A DNA stretch of 64,000 bases from Deltaproteobacteria bacterium (GTDB lineage: Bacteria; Desulfobacterota; Desulfuromonadia; Desulfuromonadales; BM103): NCBI GenBank assembly GCA_024279915.1, contig JAJRRB010000078.1, positions 186,001-250,000 of the forward strand. The letters are read 5' to 3'. The notes beneath the pieces were generated by a model. That model saw only the letters and a program-made list of their open reading frames with translations, did not search any database and was not told the origin of the DNA. Position numbers and translations under genes: made by a program. Below are positions 56,525 to 62,279 of this stretch, piece after piece. Positions within the stretch are counted from its first letter, which is position 1. The number at the start of each line of letters is the position of its first letter.

Positions 56525-56692
56525 CTAGGAGCCTGTCCGACAATAAGGGTCGAAGCGAAAATCCAGAAGTTTGAGAACAGATTTTGGCTCGTTTGATAGC
56601 TCATAGCAGTAGCTATGGGCCGAAAAGGAGCTGAAATATGGTCCAAACAGCTGGATTTGCAGCCGATCATGGATTGTCGGACAGCCTCCTAG
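56525..56692. mobile_element. 168-bp terminal-inverted-repeat element, copy B
   Basis: Same length as, and in inverted orientation to, 29619-29786. Ends are CTAGGAGCCTGTCCGACAAT and its inverse with one mismatch; the centre is CATAGCAGTAGCTATG. Its right-hand terminal CTAG supplies the stop codon of gshA, so it abuts or has trimmed that gene. Confidence 0.85.
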
Positions 56693-58092
56693 AACTGTGT
56701 CTCGGCGCAGTCCGCAGGTTTGGGAGGGATATCGAAAAAGCCGCAATGCGCAATCAAAATCTTGATCTTCTCCTGACGATCCCCTTGCCAATTTTGCAGA
56801 AGTTGTTCTGCCAGGGTGACACTGCCCTCTACCAGAGTGTCGAGTCCTTTCAGAAAATGACACTCGCTCCGTTCCTGGCATTTTCTGGATTTCTGTTGGT
56901 CAAGGCCATTACGAGCCAGGGCAAGGCAGATTCGCGCAAGATCCTGCAAGGTGCCGTCTTTCCAGGGAGCGTGCAGACCTTGACGCCAAGCGTTGCGGCA
57001 GGCGATTTCGATTTCTGCTGTGGAATCCAGTTGACAATATTCCCATGCAGTCTGGAAAGACTCCTTATCGTACATCAAGCCTTTTAGTAGAGCGGCAACG
57101 GCTAACACCAGGTGTGGTGGCAGGCTGTCGGCACTACGTACTTCGATCTGCGGGCGTAGCCGTACTTCAGGAAAAAGTGTCGATAAGTGCAGATCCCCAT
57201 CGCTCATGGTTGCTTGGTGCCCAGCGTGACCTGAGTCGAGGAACTCACGGAAGGTGAAAGGTCGTTGGGTCAGGTCGAGATACTCTCCTTTCCGACTAAG
57301 AAAGTACATCGGCACATCGAGAGCATACTCGACATAATCGGCAAAGCCTGCATCAGGGTTGTCGAGGAAAGGCAGCAGTCCGGTTCGGTCTGGATCTGTG
57401 CGTGACCAGATCTCGCCACGTGTGGTCAAAAAGCCGGTAGGCTGCCCGTCCATAATGGGTGAATTGGCAAAAAGCCCGTAGAGCAAGGGGGCGAGAGCCT
57501 GAGCCAGGCGCAGTTTTCTCATGCAGTCAGCTTCATCGCTGAAATCCAGATTAACCTGAAAGCCTGCGCTCTGCTTCATCATGCGTTGGCCCATGTCGCC
57601 GGTTTTCTGCATGTAGGGTACCATGATGTCGTAACGTGACTTGGGCGCCCACTCTATTTCATTCAGACGGCTGAAAGGCTGGGTTCCCAGGCCAAGCAGA
57701 ATCAATCCCAGCTTTTTACAGGCATCAACCACTTTGGCAATATGTTGGTTGAAATCTCTGCAGTTGCAGAAAAGATCAATACAGAGTCGCCCGGAAAGTT
57801 CAAACTGTCCACCAGGTTCGAGAGTAATCGATGAATGTTGCCCCTGCAGACCTATGAGTCTGGACCCTTCACGAAGATCCTGCCAGTCGCCGGCTTTTGC
57901 CAGTGCTGCCAGTAAGGTTTCAATCCTGGAAAACTTGGCCGCTTCGCCTGTTTTGGCATCGAGAACCAGCATTTCCATTTCCGCACCGATACCCCACTCG
58001 GTTTCCGGCCGTGCTCCAGCAGTAAAAAAATGAATCAATTGGTCACGTGATGTAATCAGCGCGTCATCTTTGATTTTATGTGGAGTGAGCAT
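56689..58092 (-). CDS. gshA: Glutamate-cysteine ligase (plant/proteobacterial GCS2 type)
   Basis: A 467-residue ATP-dependent ligase for the first step of glutathione synthesis. GIGAEMEMLVLD near residue 35 is the ATP/Mg site region; SITLEPGGQFELSGRLCIDL near residue 87 and KSRYDIMVPYMQKTGDMGQR near residue 150 are typical of the GCS2/EgtA superfamily. Its stop codon lies in the end of the repeat element, so the natural C-terminus may have been a little different. Alternative: a related carboxylate-amine ligase, but the length and motifs favour GshA. Confidence 0.87.
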   Translation of the reverse strand: MLTPHKIKDDALITSRDQLIHFFTAGARPETEWGIGAEMEMLVLDAKTGEAAKFSRIETLLAALAKAGDWQDLREGSRLIGLQGQHSSITLEPGGQFELSGRLCIDLFCNCRDFNQHIAKVVDACKKLGLILLGLGTQPFSRLNEIEWAPKSRYDIMVPYMQKTGDMGQRMMKQSAGFQVNLDFSDEADCMRKLRLAQALAPLLYGLFANSPIMDGQPTGFLTTRGEIWSRTDPDRTGLLPFLDNPDAGFADYVEYALDVPMYFLSRKGEYLDLTQRPFTFREFLDSGHAGHQATMSDGDLHLSTLFPEVRLRPQIEVRSADSLPPHLVLAVAALLKGLMYDKESFQTAWEYCQLDSTAEIEIACRNAWRQGLHAPWKDGTLQDLARICLALARNGLDQQKSRKCQERSECHFLKGLDTLVEGSVTLAEQLLQNWQGDRQEKIKILIAHCGFFDIPPKPADCAETQF

Positions 58093-58119: not shown

Positions 58120-59433
58120 TCAGTCTGAACCTGATCCCAGATATTCAGAAATCTTAGCCGAAATATTTTTGAAGATGCGCGTGAAGGTTGCTTCGTCACG
58201 TTCCAGCAGAGTGATGCGGAAACCCTGCTCAGGGGTGAAGAAGGATGATAGTGGTACGACGCAGATGCCGGTTGACGCCAGCAGATAGTAGACGAAGCGT
58301 TTATCTGGAGAGACTCCAGGCTGGTTGACCAGATTTTCGACCAGTTTACGGACTTCGGGAAGTTCTATCGGTAGAGTTTGCTTATCGTTGAGTTGCTCCT
58401 CTTTGAAAGCAACACTCATGTAGAAGGCGCCGTTAGTCCGATTGACCTTGATCTCCGGAACTTGTTTGAGAATATCGTAAGCAATGTTGGAAAATTTCTC
58501 ATAACGGGTGATGCGTTCTTCAAGCCAGGCCGGGTACTCGGGGTGGCTGAGAATGGGTGGAATCGCTTTTTGTGGCAAAGTTGTCGAACACACTTCGACC
58601 ATTTTTGAATCAACAATACTCTGGATGTAGCGTTTGAACATCGGATCCTTATCAACGTTGTAAACTTCAATCCAGCCGCAGCGAGAGCCGGGCCATGGCA
58701 ACTCCTTGCTGATCCCCTTCATCGAAATGGCTGGAACATCGCCAATCAGGTCAGAGATCGGCTTGGTCGATTGGCCGTTATAGACGATGTTCTGATAGAT
58801 CTCATCAGCGATAATGAAGAGGTCGTACTCTTTGGCGATCGCCACCATTTCTTTGAGGATGCGCTCTGGCCAGACAGCTCCGGTGGGATTGTCCGGGTTG
58901 ATAATCAGGATGCCGGAGATGGTTGGGTTATACTTGATCGACAGGCGCAGATCATCAAGATCAGGATACCAGTTGTTGGCAGGATCGAGACGATAACAGA
59001 CCGGGCTTTGACCGGCATGGGCGGCTTCGCCGGACGAGTGTGTGGAATAAGTCGGTGAGGGTCCGATTACGCGGGATTCACGCCGCAATAGGCCATAAAC
59101 CTTTTGAATCGCATCGCCCAGGCCGTTGAAGAAGATGATGTCGTCCGCGGATATCTGTGTTTTGTCCCGCCGATTGGTCATCTTGGCGAGGAATTCGCGG
59201 GTCTCAAGAACACCCTTGGTCGCACAATATCCGTAGCTGCAGTCCTTCATAGCCAGATCGGCGACGATCTTTTTCATCCACTTGGGAATGATCTCGCCCT
59301 TGGCGATTGGATCACCGATATTTTCCATATTGGTATCGATGCCGAGAGATTTAAGCTTATCGGCAATGTCGACGATGGCCCGGATTTCGTAAGTCAGTTC
59401 GCCAGCACCGATATGAACGATATTGTTACGCAT
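58120..59433 (-). CDS. PLP-dependent class I/II aminotransferase, possibly alanine-linked
   Basis: A 437-residue aminotransferase. Substrate-strand NMENIGDPIAKGEIIPKW near residue 36, cofactor site NPDNPTGAVWPERI near residue 178, DEIYQNIVYNG, and PLP Lys in SMKGISKELPWPGSRCGW near residue 238. The sequence alone does not fix the substrate. Upstream on the same strand lies an alanine-rich leader peptide followed by a terminator, so alanine is the likely product or signal. It reads towards gshA, 27 bp apart, and the two may be co-transcribed. Confidence 0.87.
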   Translation of the reverse strand: MRNNIVHIGAGELTYEIRAIVDIADKLKSLGIDTNMENIGDPIAKGEIIPKWMKKIVADLAMKDCSYGYCATKGVLETREFLAKMTNRRDKTQISADDIIFFNGLGDAIQKVYGLLRRESRVIGPSPTYSTHSSGEAAHAGQSPVCYRLDPANNWYPDLDDLRLSIKYNPTISGILIINPDNPTGAVWPERILKEMVAIAKEYDLFIIADEIYQNIVYNGQSTKPISDLIGDVPAISMKGISKELPWPGSRCGWIEVYNVDKDPMFKRYIQSIVDSKMVEVCSTTLPQKAIPPILSHPEYPAWLEERITRYEKFSNIAYDILKQVPEIKVNRTNGAFYMSVAFKEEQLNDKQTLPIELPEVRKLVENLVNQPGVSPDKRFVYYLLASTGICVVPLSSFFTPEQGFRITLLERDEATFTRIFKNISAKISEYLGSGSD

Positions 59434-59470
59434 GAGGTTCTTCCTTCCGGTTCCCCTGGGGGAGGTAAAA

Positions 59471-59503
59471 TTAAAAAGGCCATGGACGTTTGCCCATGGC
59501 CTT
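59471..59503 (-). terminator. Putative attenuator terminator before the aminotransferase
   Basis: Read on the minus strand: AAGGCCATGG, loop GCAAACGT, CCATGGCCTT, then TTTAATTTT. It starts 19 bp after the stop of the Ala-rich leader peptide. Its 5' arm can instead pair with the leader: GCCTTGA (59536 to 59530) with TCAAGGC (59505 to 59499), a 7-bp antiterminator. Confidence 0.8.
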
Positions 59504-59522
59504 GATCAAGTAAAAGTCTGAA

Positions 59523-59630
59523 TCAGTTTTCAAGGCAATGGATAAGTTCGTGGCAAGCGGCCGCCGCTGCAGCCGCGCTGTTTGCTCGGGCGGTTTTGCT
59601 TGCTGCAGGAGTGTTTGCCATTTTGAACAT
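59523..59630 (-). CDS. Alanine-rich leader peptide
   Basis: A 35-residue frame (or 32 from the second ATG) that reads MFKMANTPAASKTARANS, then seven Ala in a row, then CHELIHCLEN and stop. The seven Ala use GCG, GCT, GCA, GCG, GCG, GCC and GCT, so amino acid, not codon or simple repeat, is kept. GGAAG stands four bases before the first ATG. With the terminator after it and an aminotransferase next, this is the layout of an alanine-tRNA-sensing attenuator. The GCCTTGA antiterminator arm lies just before the stop codon, where a terminating ribosome would cover it. Confidence 0.75.
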   Translation of the reverse strand: MFKMANTPAASKTARANSAAAAAAACHELIHCLEN

Positions 59631-59720
59631 GAATCTTCCGTTGCGAGAGATTAGAGAGTGTCCGTCTGTTAGCATGACTGATTTTTTTTGTCAATGAATT
59701 GTTCTTCAGCCGACAGTCAT

Positions 59721-62279
59721 TTACTCCTCTTTGTCGCCCATTTCCGTGTCATTGAATTTGGTGCTGTCGAAGAATTCTGTGATGGCATCAGTCAGCTCAG
59801 CTTGGGGTTTTGTTGCTATCGGTACATTCGGTAAAGAGTGCAGGAAAAGTCGTCCATAGCCGCGCCTGACAATCCGACTGTCGAGAATCAGAACAACCCC
59901 ACGATCGGTGCGATGGCGAATCAGTCGGCCGAAACCTTGCCGGAAACGAATCACAGCTTGGGGAACTGTGTAGTCCATGAATGGATCGCCTCCAGCTCTG
60001 GTAATTGCTTCGGCACGCGCTTCGAGTACCGGCTCGGTAGGAACTCTGAATGGCAGTCGGGCAATGATGACCTGCTCTAATGATCGCCCGGGGACATCAA
60101 CCCCCTCCCAGAAGGAATCGGTGGCAAACAGAATGCTGGTTGGGTCCTGACTGAATTTCTGTAGCAGGTCGTGCCGGGTTGCTTCGCCCTGGCGTAATAC
60201 TTGGTAACCGCGAGCCGATAGTATTGGAGATAACTCGCTATGAATGCGGCGTAAAAGGCTGTAGGCGGTAAAGAGCACAAAGCTGCGACCATCAGCAGCA
60301 AGCAGAGCTTTTTCAGTCAAGTCACGGACGGCTTCGGTATATCCGGGTCGACCAGGCTCAGGAATGTCAGTTGGGATTGCCAGCAGGGCCTGTTTTTCGA
60401 AATCGAAAGGTGATGCGAGCAGTAGCTCAGAGAAACGACCTGGTTCCAGCTCATCAAGTCCGATCCGTTGGCGAAAGTAATCAAAACGTCCAGCCACAGT
60501 CAGTGTTGCACTGGTCATGACGACAGTCTGCATGCGTTCCATCAGAGTCTCTCGCAAGAGCGGCGCAACCACCAGAGGTGCTGTGCAGAGGCGGGTGATG
60601 ATCCCTTCACCGCGACCGATGCGGCCTTTGGTGATTTCAAACCAGGCACACGATTCCGGAGCATTGGCGACAAATGCCCGCACCTGGTCGGCGGTGCTCT
60701 GCAGACGTAAACTGATGCCGGCCAGGTCAGTCGCGAGCGAACGGGTTGCTTCGGCAGCGTCGTCTGGTAGTTTGTTTAATGCTTTCAGCAGTTCGCGTAG
60801 CGCATCACCGAAGTCACTGGTCGCTCTAGACAGACTGCGCAGCATGCCCTCGGTTTTTTGCCAGGCCGGTTTTTCAATGAACAGAGGTATCAACCTTTGA
60901 CGAATTTCTTCTCCGGCACGAATGTCAGTGCCAAGAGCTTTTGCTAAATCGAGACCGGTCTGTTCCAGTTCGGCAATGGATCTGTCGAGCAACTCTTGAC
61001 GTTGGTTGGTGAGTGCGTCAATACGCTCTTGCAGTTCCTGATATAGAGCATTCTGGCTATCATCAAGCGAGTTGCTGAGTTGTACAAGCAGACGTGGCAA
61101 AAGACCTCGTTGCGGTTTGCGAGGGTGGCGTAGTCGGTTAAGGGTGCGGGCGAAAGCAAAGCGGGTCACTTGTGTACTGAAGTAACGTGTCGCAACTTCT
61201 TCAAGATGATGTGCTTCGTCAATCACTAATCTGGAGAATGGCGGTAACACCGCCATTGCCGAATAGTTGTCGGTCTGATGGCGTAAAGAGAGGTCGGCCA
61301 AGAGCAGGGCATGATTCACCACCAGGATATCGGCCCGGGCGGCACGTCGCCTGGCTTGATGAAAGAAACAGCTGTTAAAATACTGACACTGGCTACGACT
61401 GCATTGGTCCGCTTCGCAGCAGACTTCGTCCCAAAGGGTACCATTGGGAAGAAAAGAGAGGTCTTCGCGTGAGCCATCACTGGTCTGCTCTGCCCATTCG
61501 CGTAACGCCTTCAGCTCGCCAACATGCTCACTGTCAAAAAGGCCAGGCTCTGCTGCAGCGCTTTCCAGCCGGCGTTGACAAAGGTAGTTCGAGCGGCCTT
61601 TGACCAGTTCAACTCGAAACTCCAGACCCGTGGCCCGTTGCAAGAAGGGCAGGTCTTTGCGAATCAACTGCTCCTGCAGATTGATTGTGTTGGTAGAGAC
61701 GACCAGTCGCTCCCGGTTGGCAAGGGTCCAGAGGATGGCAGGAACCAGGTAGGCGAGGCTTTTGCCTGTGCCGGTACCAGCCTCAACCAGGGCGATGCTG
61801 TGGCGATTGAGAGCTTCGGTGACCGCAAAGGCCATGCGCAACTGTTCGGGGCGGTCTTCAAATCCAGGCAGGTTTTGACAAACTTTCCCTTCTGCTCCCA
61901 GGAGTGCCGTGACTTGTTCGTATTCAACCGTTGTGTTCTCTGCTGGTTTAAACGCTTCGACGACCCGGTAAATTTTGTTGACCTGGTTATTGACAATGTA
62001 GAAACCAACTCCCAGAGAACCAAGATTGCCGGCTATGGCAAGGTCCGGATCTGAGGGCTCAAGATGTCCGCTTGGGTGATTATGAATAATGATATCGCCG
62101 GGACGGCAGGACTGGAGAATTGCGGGGACCGCTTCGCGATTGCCCCGGGCGAGGACTTCCAGATCAACGACAATTTGCTCCGCATCGGTATGGCCGAGAC
62201 AGAAAACTTCGTTGCCGCCAGATTCGAGAATTTCCTGGCGCAGCTTGGCTTGAGATTTTTCAGAAAGATACTTGTCCAT
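59721..62279 (-). CDS. DinG-type helicase with N-terminal JAMM/RadC-like domain
   Basis: An 852-residue fusion. Residues 1-110 carry a RadC-like JAMM domain with a full metal motif in IIIHNHPSGHLEPSDPDLAI (H-x-H, then S and D). From about 150 on is an XPD/DinG superfamily-2 helicase: Walker A VEAGTGTGKSLAYLVP, FeS-type cysteines (CCEADQCSRSQCQYFNSC), VNHALLLADL, DEAHHLEE, and the C-terminal motor with SFWEGVDVPG and QGFGRLIRHRTDRG. DinG unwinds DNA/RNA structures. The metal-hydrolase fusion is unusual. The upstream spacer with clpB may hold divergent promoters. Confidence 0.88.
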   Translation of the reverse strand: MDKYLSEKSQAKLRQEILESGGNEVFCLGHTDAEQIVVDLEVLARGNREAVPAILQSCRPGDIIIHNHPSGHLEPSDPDLAIAGNLGSLGVGFYIVNNQVNKIYRVVEAFKPAENTTVEYEQVTALLGAEGKVCQNLPGFEDRPEQLRMAFAVTEALNRHSIALVEAGTGTGKSLAYLVPAILWTLANRERLVVSTNTINLQEQLIRKDLPFLQRATGLEFRVELVKGRSNYLCQRRLESAAAEPGLFDSEHVGELKALREWAEQTSDGSREDLSFLPNGTLWDEVCCEADQCSRSQCQYFNSCFFHQARRRAARADILVVNHALLLADLSLRHQTDNYSAMAVLPPFSRLVIDEAHHLEEVATRYFSTQVTRFAFARTLNRLRHPRKPQRGLLPRLLVQLSNSLDDSQNALYQELQERIDALTNQRQELLDRSIAELEQTGLDLAKALGTDIRAGEEIRQRLIPLFIEKPAWQKTEGMLRSLSRATSDFGDALRELLKALNKLPDDAAEATRSLATDLAGISLRLQSTADQVRAFVANAPESCAWFEITKGRIGRGEGIITRLCTAPLVVAPLLRETLMERMQTVVMTSATLTVAGRFDYFRQRIGLDELEPGRFSELLLASPFDFEKQALLAIPTDIPEPGRPGYTEAVRDLTEKALLAADGRSFVLFTAYSLLRRIHSELSPILSARGYQVLRQGEATRHDLLQKFSQDPTSILFATDSFWEGVDVPGRSLEQVIIARLPFRVPTEPVLEARAEAITRAGGDPFMDYTVPQAVIRFRQGFGRLIRHRTDRGVVLILDSRIVRRGYGRLFLHSLPNVPIATKPQAELTDAITEFFDSTKFNDTEMGDKEE

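Follow-up and report, generated by a model that had tools for sequence, protein, structure and literature searches.

Relation to described attenuators

Ribosome-mediated attenuation is a textbook mechanism of bacterial gene control. The trp, his, leu, thr, phe and ilv leaders carry a short leader ORF rich in codons for the end product and a terminator located before the first gene; in attenuators of the trp/his/leu type, the leader end pairs alternatively with the 5′ arm of the terminator. A protector hairpin belongs to the trp scheme and is not taken here as defining for every attenuator. T-box riboswitches, including those with Ala specificity, likewise respond to tRNA charging and act on termination. 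In the model of Elf and Ehrenberg, how sensitive an attenuator is depends on how little its regulatory codon is used and on which of the synonymous codons is chosen (PMC1183508, accessible part), so a common amino acid would be a hard case for attenuation. In mycobacteria, transcription of whiB7 under uORF control is connected with alanine starvation and with aspC, a gene of alanine biosynthesis (PMC13236596, accessible text).

The locus described here lies on the minus strand of the window, the whole 64,000-nucleotide stretch of DNA that was analysed. It is read as a ribosome-mediated transcription attenuator that would report alanine supply through charged tRNA-Ala, with a probability of roughly 0.88. 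Translation of the leader, termination and the alanine signal are predicted; the leader ORF, its codon choice, the mutually exclusive covarying stems, the promoter-like motif and the match between codons and pathway are established at the level of sequence comparison. The locus shares with the operon attenuators the codon-rich leader ORF, the terminator before the first gene, the alternative pairing of the leader end and, as modelled in the accessible part of PMC1183508, a biased set of synonymous regulatory codons. It differs from trp/his/leu-type attenuators in its Ala codons, in the absence of a detectable protector hairpin, in an antiterminator running into the terminator loop and in a conserved CGA codon. 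Unlike a T-box, it carries codons in a leader ORF, and the window contains no T-box match at the gathering threshold. The likeness to whiB7 is one of description: the whiB7 uORF controls a trans-acting transcription factor (PMC13236596, accessible text), whereas the window's attenuator would act in cis before an aminotransferase gene.

Scanning the window against Rfam release 15 at the gathering threshold yielded only a tRNA, and positions 59400-59720 gave no match at E up to 1; eight relatives likewise had no match at the gathering threshold, and none was seen in the five tested loci of the wider module described below. The sequence-only reading had called alanine attenuators rarely if ever described. 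The alanine-linked whiB7 is a precedent that calls for a correction of this claim (PMC13236596, accessible text). Among the listed literature matches (titles and beginnings of abstracts, with most subscription papers outside the scope), none concerned a cis-acting alanine attenuator before an aminotransferase gene or attenuators of this type from Geobacter or Desulfo- groups. That partial literature also yielded neither the CGA codon nor the shared module discussed below, the searches having been aimed at other subjects than the module. With this locus, alanine, which ranks among the most frequent residues of proteins, would very probably join the amino acids known to be subject to cis attenuation. 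The predicted RNA switch is found again across the bacterial class, and versions fitted to other amino acids occur elsewhere in the phylum.

Organisation of the locus

A 287-nt gap separates a DinG/YoaA-type helicase gene (59721-62279) from the aminotransferase gene (58120-59433), both on the minus strand; in it, a promoter-like motif is followed by the 35-codon leader and then by the terminator. The locus comprises the following features.

59670-59694, minus strand: promoter-like TTGAC-N15-TGCTA upstream of the leader; the pattern is conserved across loci
59635-59639, minus strand: SD-like GGAAG, 4 nt ahead of the leader ATG
59523-59630, minus strand: putative leader peptide ORF, 35 codons and a stop (ATG 59630-59628, stop 59525-59523); peptide MFKMANTPAASKTARANSAAAAAAACHELIHCLEN
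59586-59588, minus strand: CGA (Arg) codon ahead of the Ala run, conserved as a codon across leaders
59556-59576, minus strand: seven consecutive Ala codons (GCG GCT GCA GCG GCG GCC GCT), the putative regulatory codons
59530-59541, minus strand: 5′ strand of the predicted antiterminator (region 2), within the end of the leader ORF; from pairing and covariation
59494-59505, minus strand: 3′ strand of the predicted antiterminator (region 3), overlapping the terminator 5′ arm; from pairing and covariation
59476-59503, minus strand: predicted intrinsic terminator hairpin, 12 pairs and a loop of 4; from sequence and covariation
59473-59477, minus strand: T tract of the terminator, overlapping the last stem pairs; from sequence
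58120-59433, minus strand: putative regulated gene, AlaA-like PLP aminotransferase (NF005334/PRK06855); from NCBIfam and a structure-sequence match
56689-58092, minus strand: second gene, GCS2-family glutamate-cysteine ligase by profile match, 27 nt downstream of the aminotransferase gene and possibly co-transcribed

The 35-codon leader, its seven consecutive mixed GCN codons and its ribosome site (59639-59635), all named in the sequence-only reading, can be read directly from the minus strand. The spacing of 19 nt between stop and terminator given there is also correct; the stem of 10 bp has to be corrected to 12 pairs (59503-59476). An alternative in-frame ATG at 59675 would give a 50-codon ORF, but it sits inside the promoter-like motif, and the 35-codon start is therefore likelier. 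SD-like 4-mers precede an in-frame leader start in 61 of 79 loci, a raw count without a control. The N-terminal stretch of the upstream helicase resembles a RadC-like JAB domain (PF04002, 24.2 bits, barely above the cut-off of 22.1).

Conservation in relatives

Relatives' loci (n = 80) were retrieved with the aminotransferase as the query; the nearest are Desulfuromonadales, Deltaproteobacteria and Geobacteraceae records. An Ala-rich leader and a terminator precede the aminotransferase gene in 38 of the 80, or in 39 of 81 with the window included. The leader finder required at least 4 Ala. Two of its matches (L062 and L079) were judged spurious, the match in L072 was replaced by the leader adjoining the gene, and L001 was replaced by the window itself; three loci (L043, L045 and L074) have less than 100 nt of upstream sequence, which is too short for judgement. 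The leader peptides range from near copies to very different sequences, such as MMFSLKGYTMAAAAAAAAKAAAAGCRTHARILAR in L032 and MNSLHMASFAAARAISAAARKAARVPAAM in L055, and the Ala runs are kept while the peptides diverge, contrary to the outcome that would have refuted the sequence-only reading. Four loci with an 80-82% identical aminotransferase (L034, L035, L037 and L049) show no attenuator, and the finder yielded no accepted leader upstream of Desulfobulbaceae orthologs; the aminotransferase gene, therefore, does not need the attenuator. The distance from terminator to gene in L022 (2255-2500), L031 (2305-2500) and L046 is about 200-250 nt, longer than in most loci; that of L022 looks repeat-like by eye.

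Two mutually exclusive stems

The window's antiterminator pairs CCATTGCCTTGA (59541-59530) with TCAAGGCCATGG (59505-59494) at 11 of 12 positions. The single mismatch interrupts the duplex as CCAT-T-GCCTTGA against TCAAGGC-C-ATGG, the latter strand holding most of the terminator 5′ arm. The 7-bp antiterminator proposed earlier (59536-59530 with 59505-59499) is present as the core of this longer pairing. The leader tail and terminator arm of the window pair at -17.3 kcal/mol, a value reached by 3.3% of 300 mononucleotide shuffles. Over the 39 loci, the mean z of the leader tail-arm pairing against shuffles is -2.28, with z < -1 in 33; the six others are L030, L038, L055, L068, L072 and L077. When leaders were swapped among 21 divergent loci, own leader-arm pairs were stronger than swapped ones, the sum being reached by 21 of 20000 permutations. 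At the level of single loci, the window, L030 and L036 pair no better than with other species' leaders, 10 of 20 of which do as well for the window. Taken on its own, the window's pairing is unremarkable.

With all 39 loci aligned (38 distinct rows), the 13-pair antiterminator is paired at 85.9%, versus 29-47% for slid partners, with 26 double-change cells; for four of the five measures no shuffle out of 500 does as well, and for the fifth 8 do. The 12-pair terminator of the same rows is paired at 97.1%, also with 26 double-change cells, and has double changes at 8 pairs. In six loci, an A of the terminator 5′ arm is changed to G; the terminator partner is C in all six and the antiterminator partner is C in five. 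The antiterminator extends towards the terminator loop, whose side of the pairing covaries with the leader: L025 has CTTCACTGCC with GGCAGTGAAG, and L046 has GAAGCTC with GAGCTTC. The outer antiterminator pairs, those next to the terminator base, are broken in 10 to 15 of 38 rows.

Alignment A1, which contains 28 of the 39 loci, omits seven without an in-frame CGA, the near-duplicates L017 and L018 and the divergent L030 and L033; the antiterminator is unsupported in L030. Restricted to A1, the antiterminator scores less well on two of its five measures (33/500 and 26/500 shuffles), and one terminator measure is not significant (119/500). The re-alignment of all 39 loci served as a check on this selection, and the covariation result holds. 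In L206, leader-arm pairing does not beat shuffles (46% as good); in that comparison the energies of L208, L212, L214, L217 and L218 carry little weight, the terminator arm having been misplaced in them. RNAalifold, applied to the leader part in search of a protector or pause (1:2) hairpin, returned no structure. Comparison of the aligned loci thus demonstrates, for the window and its relatives, two mutually exclusive covarying stems, the predicted antiterminator joining the leader end to the terminator 5′ arm. The hairpin covariation that was to be sought in relatives is therefore found for both alternative stems.

Proposed mechanism

Transcription would start upstream of the leader, and a ribosome would begin the leader peptide. 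With plentiful alanine, the ribosome would pass the Ala codons, reach the stop and cover most of region 2, upon which the terminator (59476-59503) would form and transcription would end. When charged tRNA-Ala is short, the ribosome would stall in the Ala run and leave region 2 free to pair with region 3, which holds most of the terminator 5′ arm; the antiterminated RNA polymerase would then read into the aminotransferase gene and possibly also into that of glutamate-cysteine ligase.

The spacing of the elements is compatible with this scheme. Averaged over the 28 A1 loci, 14 nt (range 3 to 23) separate the start of the last Ala codon from region 2, the distance from the start of region 2 to the leader stop is 16 nt (10 to 22), and the terminator follows the stop at a distance of 23 nt (18 to 31); the window's values are 17, 16 and 19 nt. 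A ribosome footprint of 26 nt was taken for the M. tuberculosis ilvB1 attenuator (PMC13236596, accessible text). Applied to the window, it predicts that region 2 is accessible when the ribosome sits centred on the last Ala codon and that a ribosome at the stop hides 8 of the 12 bases of region 2, in agreement with the earlier proposal that finishing the leader would mask the antiterminator and stalling at Ala codons would expose it.

Distribution in the class

A covariance model, R1, was built from the 28 A1 loci. At E ≤ 0.05 it matches 247 of 277 genomes of the class, where the weak matches may be ordinary terminators; among the class members listed in the phylum draw, 15 of 17 match at E ≤ 1e-7. 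Forty strong matches (each E < 1e-12) were chosen to span 22 families; eight of them were model-building loci. All 40 have an Ala-rich leader and a downstream aminotransferase ortholog (60-86% identity), although in L148 the best alignment spans residues 129-434 only. The downstream gene is not part of R1; the Ala-richness of leaders is partly by construction, because the finder needed at least 4 Ala and R1 contains Ala codons.

A stretch of about 1 kb in L151 (minus strand 1880-800), apparently a coding gene, stands between the Ala attenuator and the aminotransferase gene, and the attenuator there may control another gene as well. A search for a second attenuator copy in the window's genus gave no candidate among the matches inspected: nine of the weaker R1 matches, two of them in the window's own genome, were read with their surrounding DNA and look like plain gene-end terminators. 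A further weak match, G008:C71, was likewise discarded, having neither leader nor aminotransferase.

Sister attenuators in the phylum

Outside the class, 17 genomes of the phylum draw match R1 at E ≤ 1e-7, and 16 loci were read in detail. Six have an Ala leader and the aminotransferase ortholog (62-75% identity). In nine others, the antiterminator-terminator part matches and the codon run is different. Leu-rich leaders precede 2-isopropylmalate synthase (L210 and L219) and the gamma subunit of a 2-oxoacid oxidoreductase (L209); aromatic leaders precede ADTH synthase (L212, L215 and L217 by NCBIfam, L220 by likeness). L213 has a Leu-rich leader at a contig end, and L214 has, from oriented position 435 onward, six consecutive Tyr codons and the same type of terminator before a gene without an NCBIfam match. 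The match of L216 is attributed to chance.

A second model, R2, represents the module alone and was built from 16 Ala, 4 Leu and 4 aromatic cases. Its 10-pair antiterminator is paired at 94.2%, versus 31-48% when slid, and has 19 double-change cells; none of 500 shuffles equals it by four of the five measures, and 9 do by the remaining one. R2 matches 87 of 247 phylum genomes at E ≤ 1e-5, which is an undercount, since the class genomes G091, G160, G260 and G274 match R1 but not R2 at this threshold. Thirty R2 loci were returned, nine of which were already in the model; the other 21 were assessed. Leader codons fit the downstream gene in 16 and contradict it in none, with frames picked by eye and the gene known, that is, not blind; five could not be judged (L247, L250, L254, L264 and L267) owing to a contig end or the lack of a clear gene or leader. 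The fitting loci combine aromatic codons with DAHP synthase, ADTH synthase or shikimate kinase, Leu with LeuA, Trp/Tyr with TrpD, and Ala with the aminotransferase. Several loci offered two or three candidate leader ORFs, L256 and L266 being the least clear. Downstream proteins of ten of the 16 were assigned by NCBIfam (nine above the curated cut-off, the shikimate kinase just short of it); the remaining six rest on the earlier reading of R1 loci (L261) or on likeness by eye. The module leaders (L209, L210, L212-L215, L217, L219, L220 and L240-L269) include Leu, aromatic, Trp and Ile-rich types.

As sister modules match the codon run to the downstream pathway, an alanine sensor is the best reading of the Ala version, and this correspondence is the strongest single argument for it. 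The shared module also suggests an annotation rule, whereby the codon run would name the pathway of the downstream gene. The same correspondence bears on the possibility of a general sensor of translation slow-down (by antibiotics or other starvation) in which, as reported for whiB7, the Ala run is merely a slow stretch. The geometry would allow this, as any stall ahead of region 2 would free it, and a trpL reporter with its Trp codons replaced by Ala responds to ribosome inhibitors (PMC5039519, accessible part). A general sensor, however, needs neither a codon identity that tracks the downstream pathway nor the abundance of Ala in the leaders (738 of 2448 residues in 69 unique leaders), and such an explanation appears improbable.

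Codon choice in the leaders

The interpretation as an Ala attenuator is supported by conservation, covariation and the sister attenuators and also by the choice of Ala codons. GCA and GCG make up 256 of 412 leader Ala codons in the 40 class loci versus 325 of 1187 in the downstream genes, and in 40 of 40 loci the share is higher in the leader than in its own downstream gene; the Fisher p of 1e-35 has to be read with caution, since the loci are related and hence not independent of one another. The rarest Ala codon of those genes is GCA, which accounts for 34% of leader Ala codons (139/412) and 7% of those in genes (81/1187), an approximately five-fold difference. GCT, the next rarest in genes (104/1187), is only slightly raised in leaders (56/412). 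GCA is not as scarce in the large ORFs of the window itself (301/1531). The bias in the leaders agrees with the theory, by which a sensitive attenuator calls for synonymous codons that are seldom used or well chosen, and the excess of GCA in leaders (34% versus 7%) makes the prediction of Elf and Ehrenberg testable (PMC1183508, accessible part).

A CGA codon followed by Ala or Val (CGA-G[CT]N) precedes the Ala run in 62 of the 69 unique leaders, with neighbouring third positions varying. R1 favours CGA, because it was built from CGA leaders only; in the set found independently of R1, CGA precedes the run in 32 of 39. The codon is rare in the downstream genes (38 of 917 Arg codons). In the window's genome, for which 44 tRNA genes were found, the Arg anticodons are ACG, CCG, TCT and CCT, and TCG is not among them; CGA should therefore be read by the ACG tRNA. 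Decoding of CGA by this tRNA is a slow pairing. A simple attenuator model gives no account of the conserved CGA; as a guess, it may be a pacing codon. By eye, four loci of another type have ATA in place of CGA (L078, L080, L211 and L218; L080 and L211 share one leader). An RNA-structural role of CGA, through pairing of CGAGC in the Ala run or with the leader tail, was dropped after inspection by eye, the flanking bases varying without evident compensation. Among the same 44 tRNA genes, the only Ala anticodon is GGC and no tRNA-Ile GAT was seen; tRNAs of rRNA operons may be absent from the assembly.

Besides Ala itself, R-A-x-x-A is the sole conserved peptide feature seen. It could point to nascent-peptide arrest, a ligand-dependent stalling of the ribosome by the conserved R-A motif and the Ala tract. 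What is kept at the Arg position, however, is the codon CGA (62 of 69) and not the residue alone; the peptides otherwise diverge, and L024, L032 and L040, which lack the motif, keep their Ala runs, so that arrest of this kind seems very improbable.

More tentatively, and with odds somewhat below even, the loci may represent one standard attenuator module of the phylum with exchanged codon cassettes (Ala, Leu, Phe/Tyr/Trp, Trp and probably Ile). Its Ala version would sense a very common amino acid by means of GCA and GCG, GCA being the rarest Ala codon of the regulated genes, with a near-invariant slow CGA pacing the ribosome against RNA polymerase.

The promoter-like motif

Of 79 loci (69 unique leaders), 77 have the pattern TTGAC-N12..19-TGNTA ahead of the leader, versus 0.4 expected in shuffles; the pattern is post hoc, having been drawn up after inspection of the sequences, and a stricter earlier one matched 24 of 79. 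The motif bears indirectly on a refuting case named in the sequence-only reading, a transcript that begins downstream of the leader. A generic sigma-70 scan called no promoter in the region upstream of the leader. That the hairpin simply ends transcription of the upstream DinG-type helicase gene, the ORF ahead of it being there by chance, is scarcely credible: it does sit between two co-directional genes, but the promoter-like motif is placed between the helicase stop and the leader, the leader and terminator stay with the aminotransferase across 22 families, and the antiterminator covaries.

The aminotransferase and the second gene

The aminotransferase belongs to NCBIfam NF005334 (PRK06855; 750.7 bits, cut-off 443), a family with a generic aminotransferase name. 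Among solved structures, E. coli AlaA (4cvq, E 3e-41) matches it best, followed by a putative transaminase (1xi9). The accessible part of PMC4094517 names the catalytic and plug residues of AlaA, with Tyr15, Ile17 and Arg18 as the substrate-selecting plug. In a phmmer alignment, ten of the residues named there are identical in the window's enzyme: Tyr15, Ile17, Arg18, Gly41, Tyr68, Tyr129, Asn179, Tyr210, Lys240 and Arg248 (offset 26, derived by hand; Arg378 and residues beyond the aligned stretch lie outside the comparison). Ser105 of AlaA is Gly in the window's enzyme; this position varies among E. coli enzymes (PMC4094517, accessible part). The suggestion in the sequence-only reading that the downstream enzyme is an alanine transaminase is thus consistent with an AlaA-like protein, to which this specificity can be assigned as probable. 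The attenuator, in turn, would support an alanine role for the PRK06855 family, so far generically named.

An alanine dehydrogenase (TIGR00518) is also encoded in the window's genome, which counts against the attenuator reading. The genome contains nothing above the cut-off of NF006964, the one model searched, which we take to be that of valine-pyruvate aminotransferase. An orthologous aminotransferase gene in a member of the genus (L011) has one internal TAA. Among the 37 attenuator loci with more than 700 nt beyond the aminotransferase gene, 25 have a GCS2 match after it.
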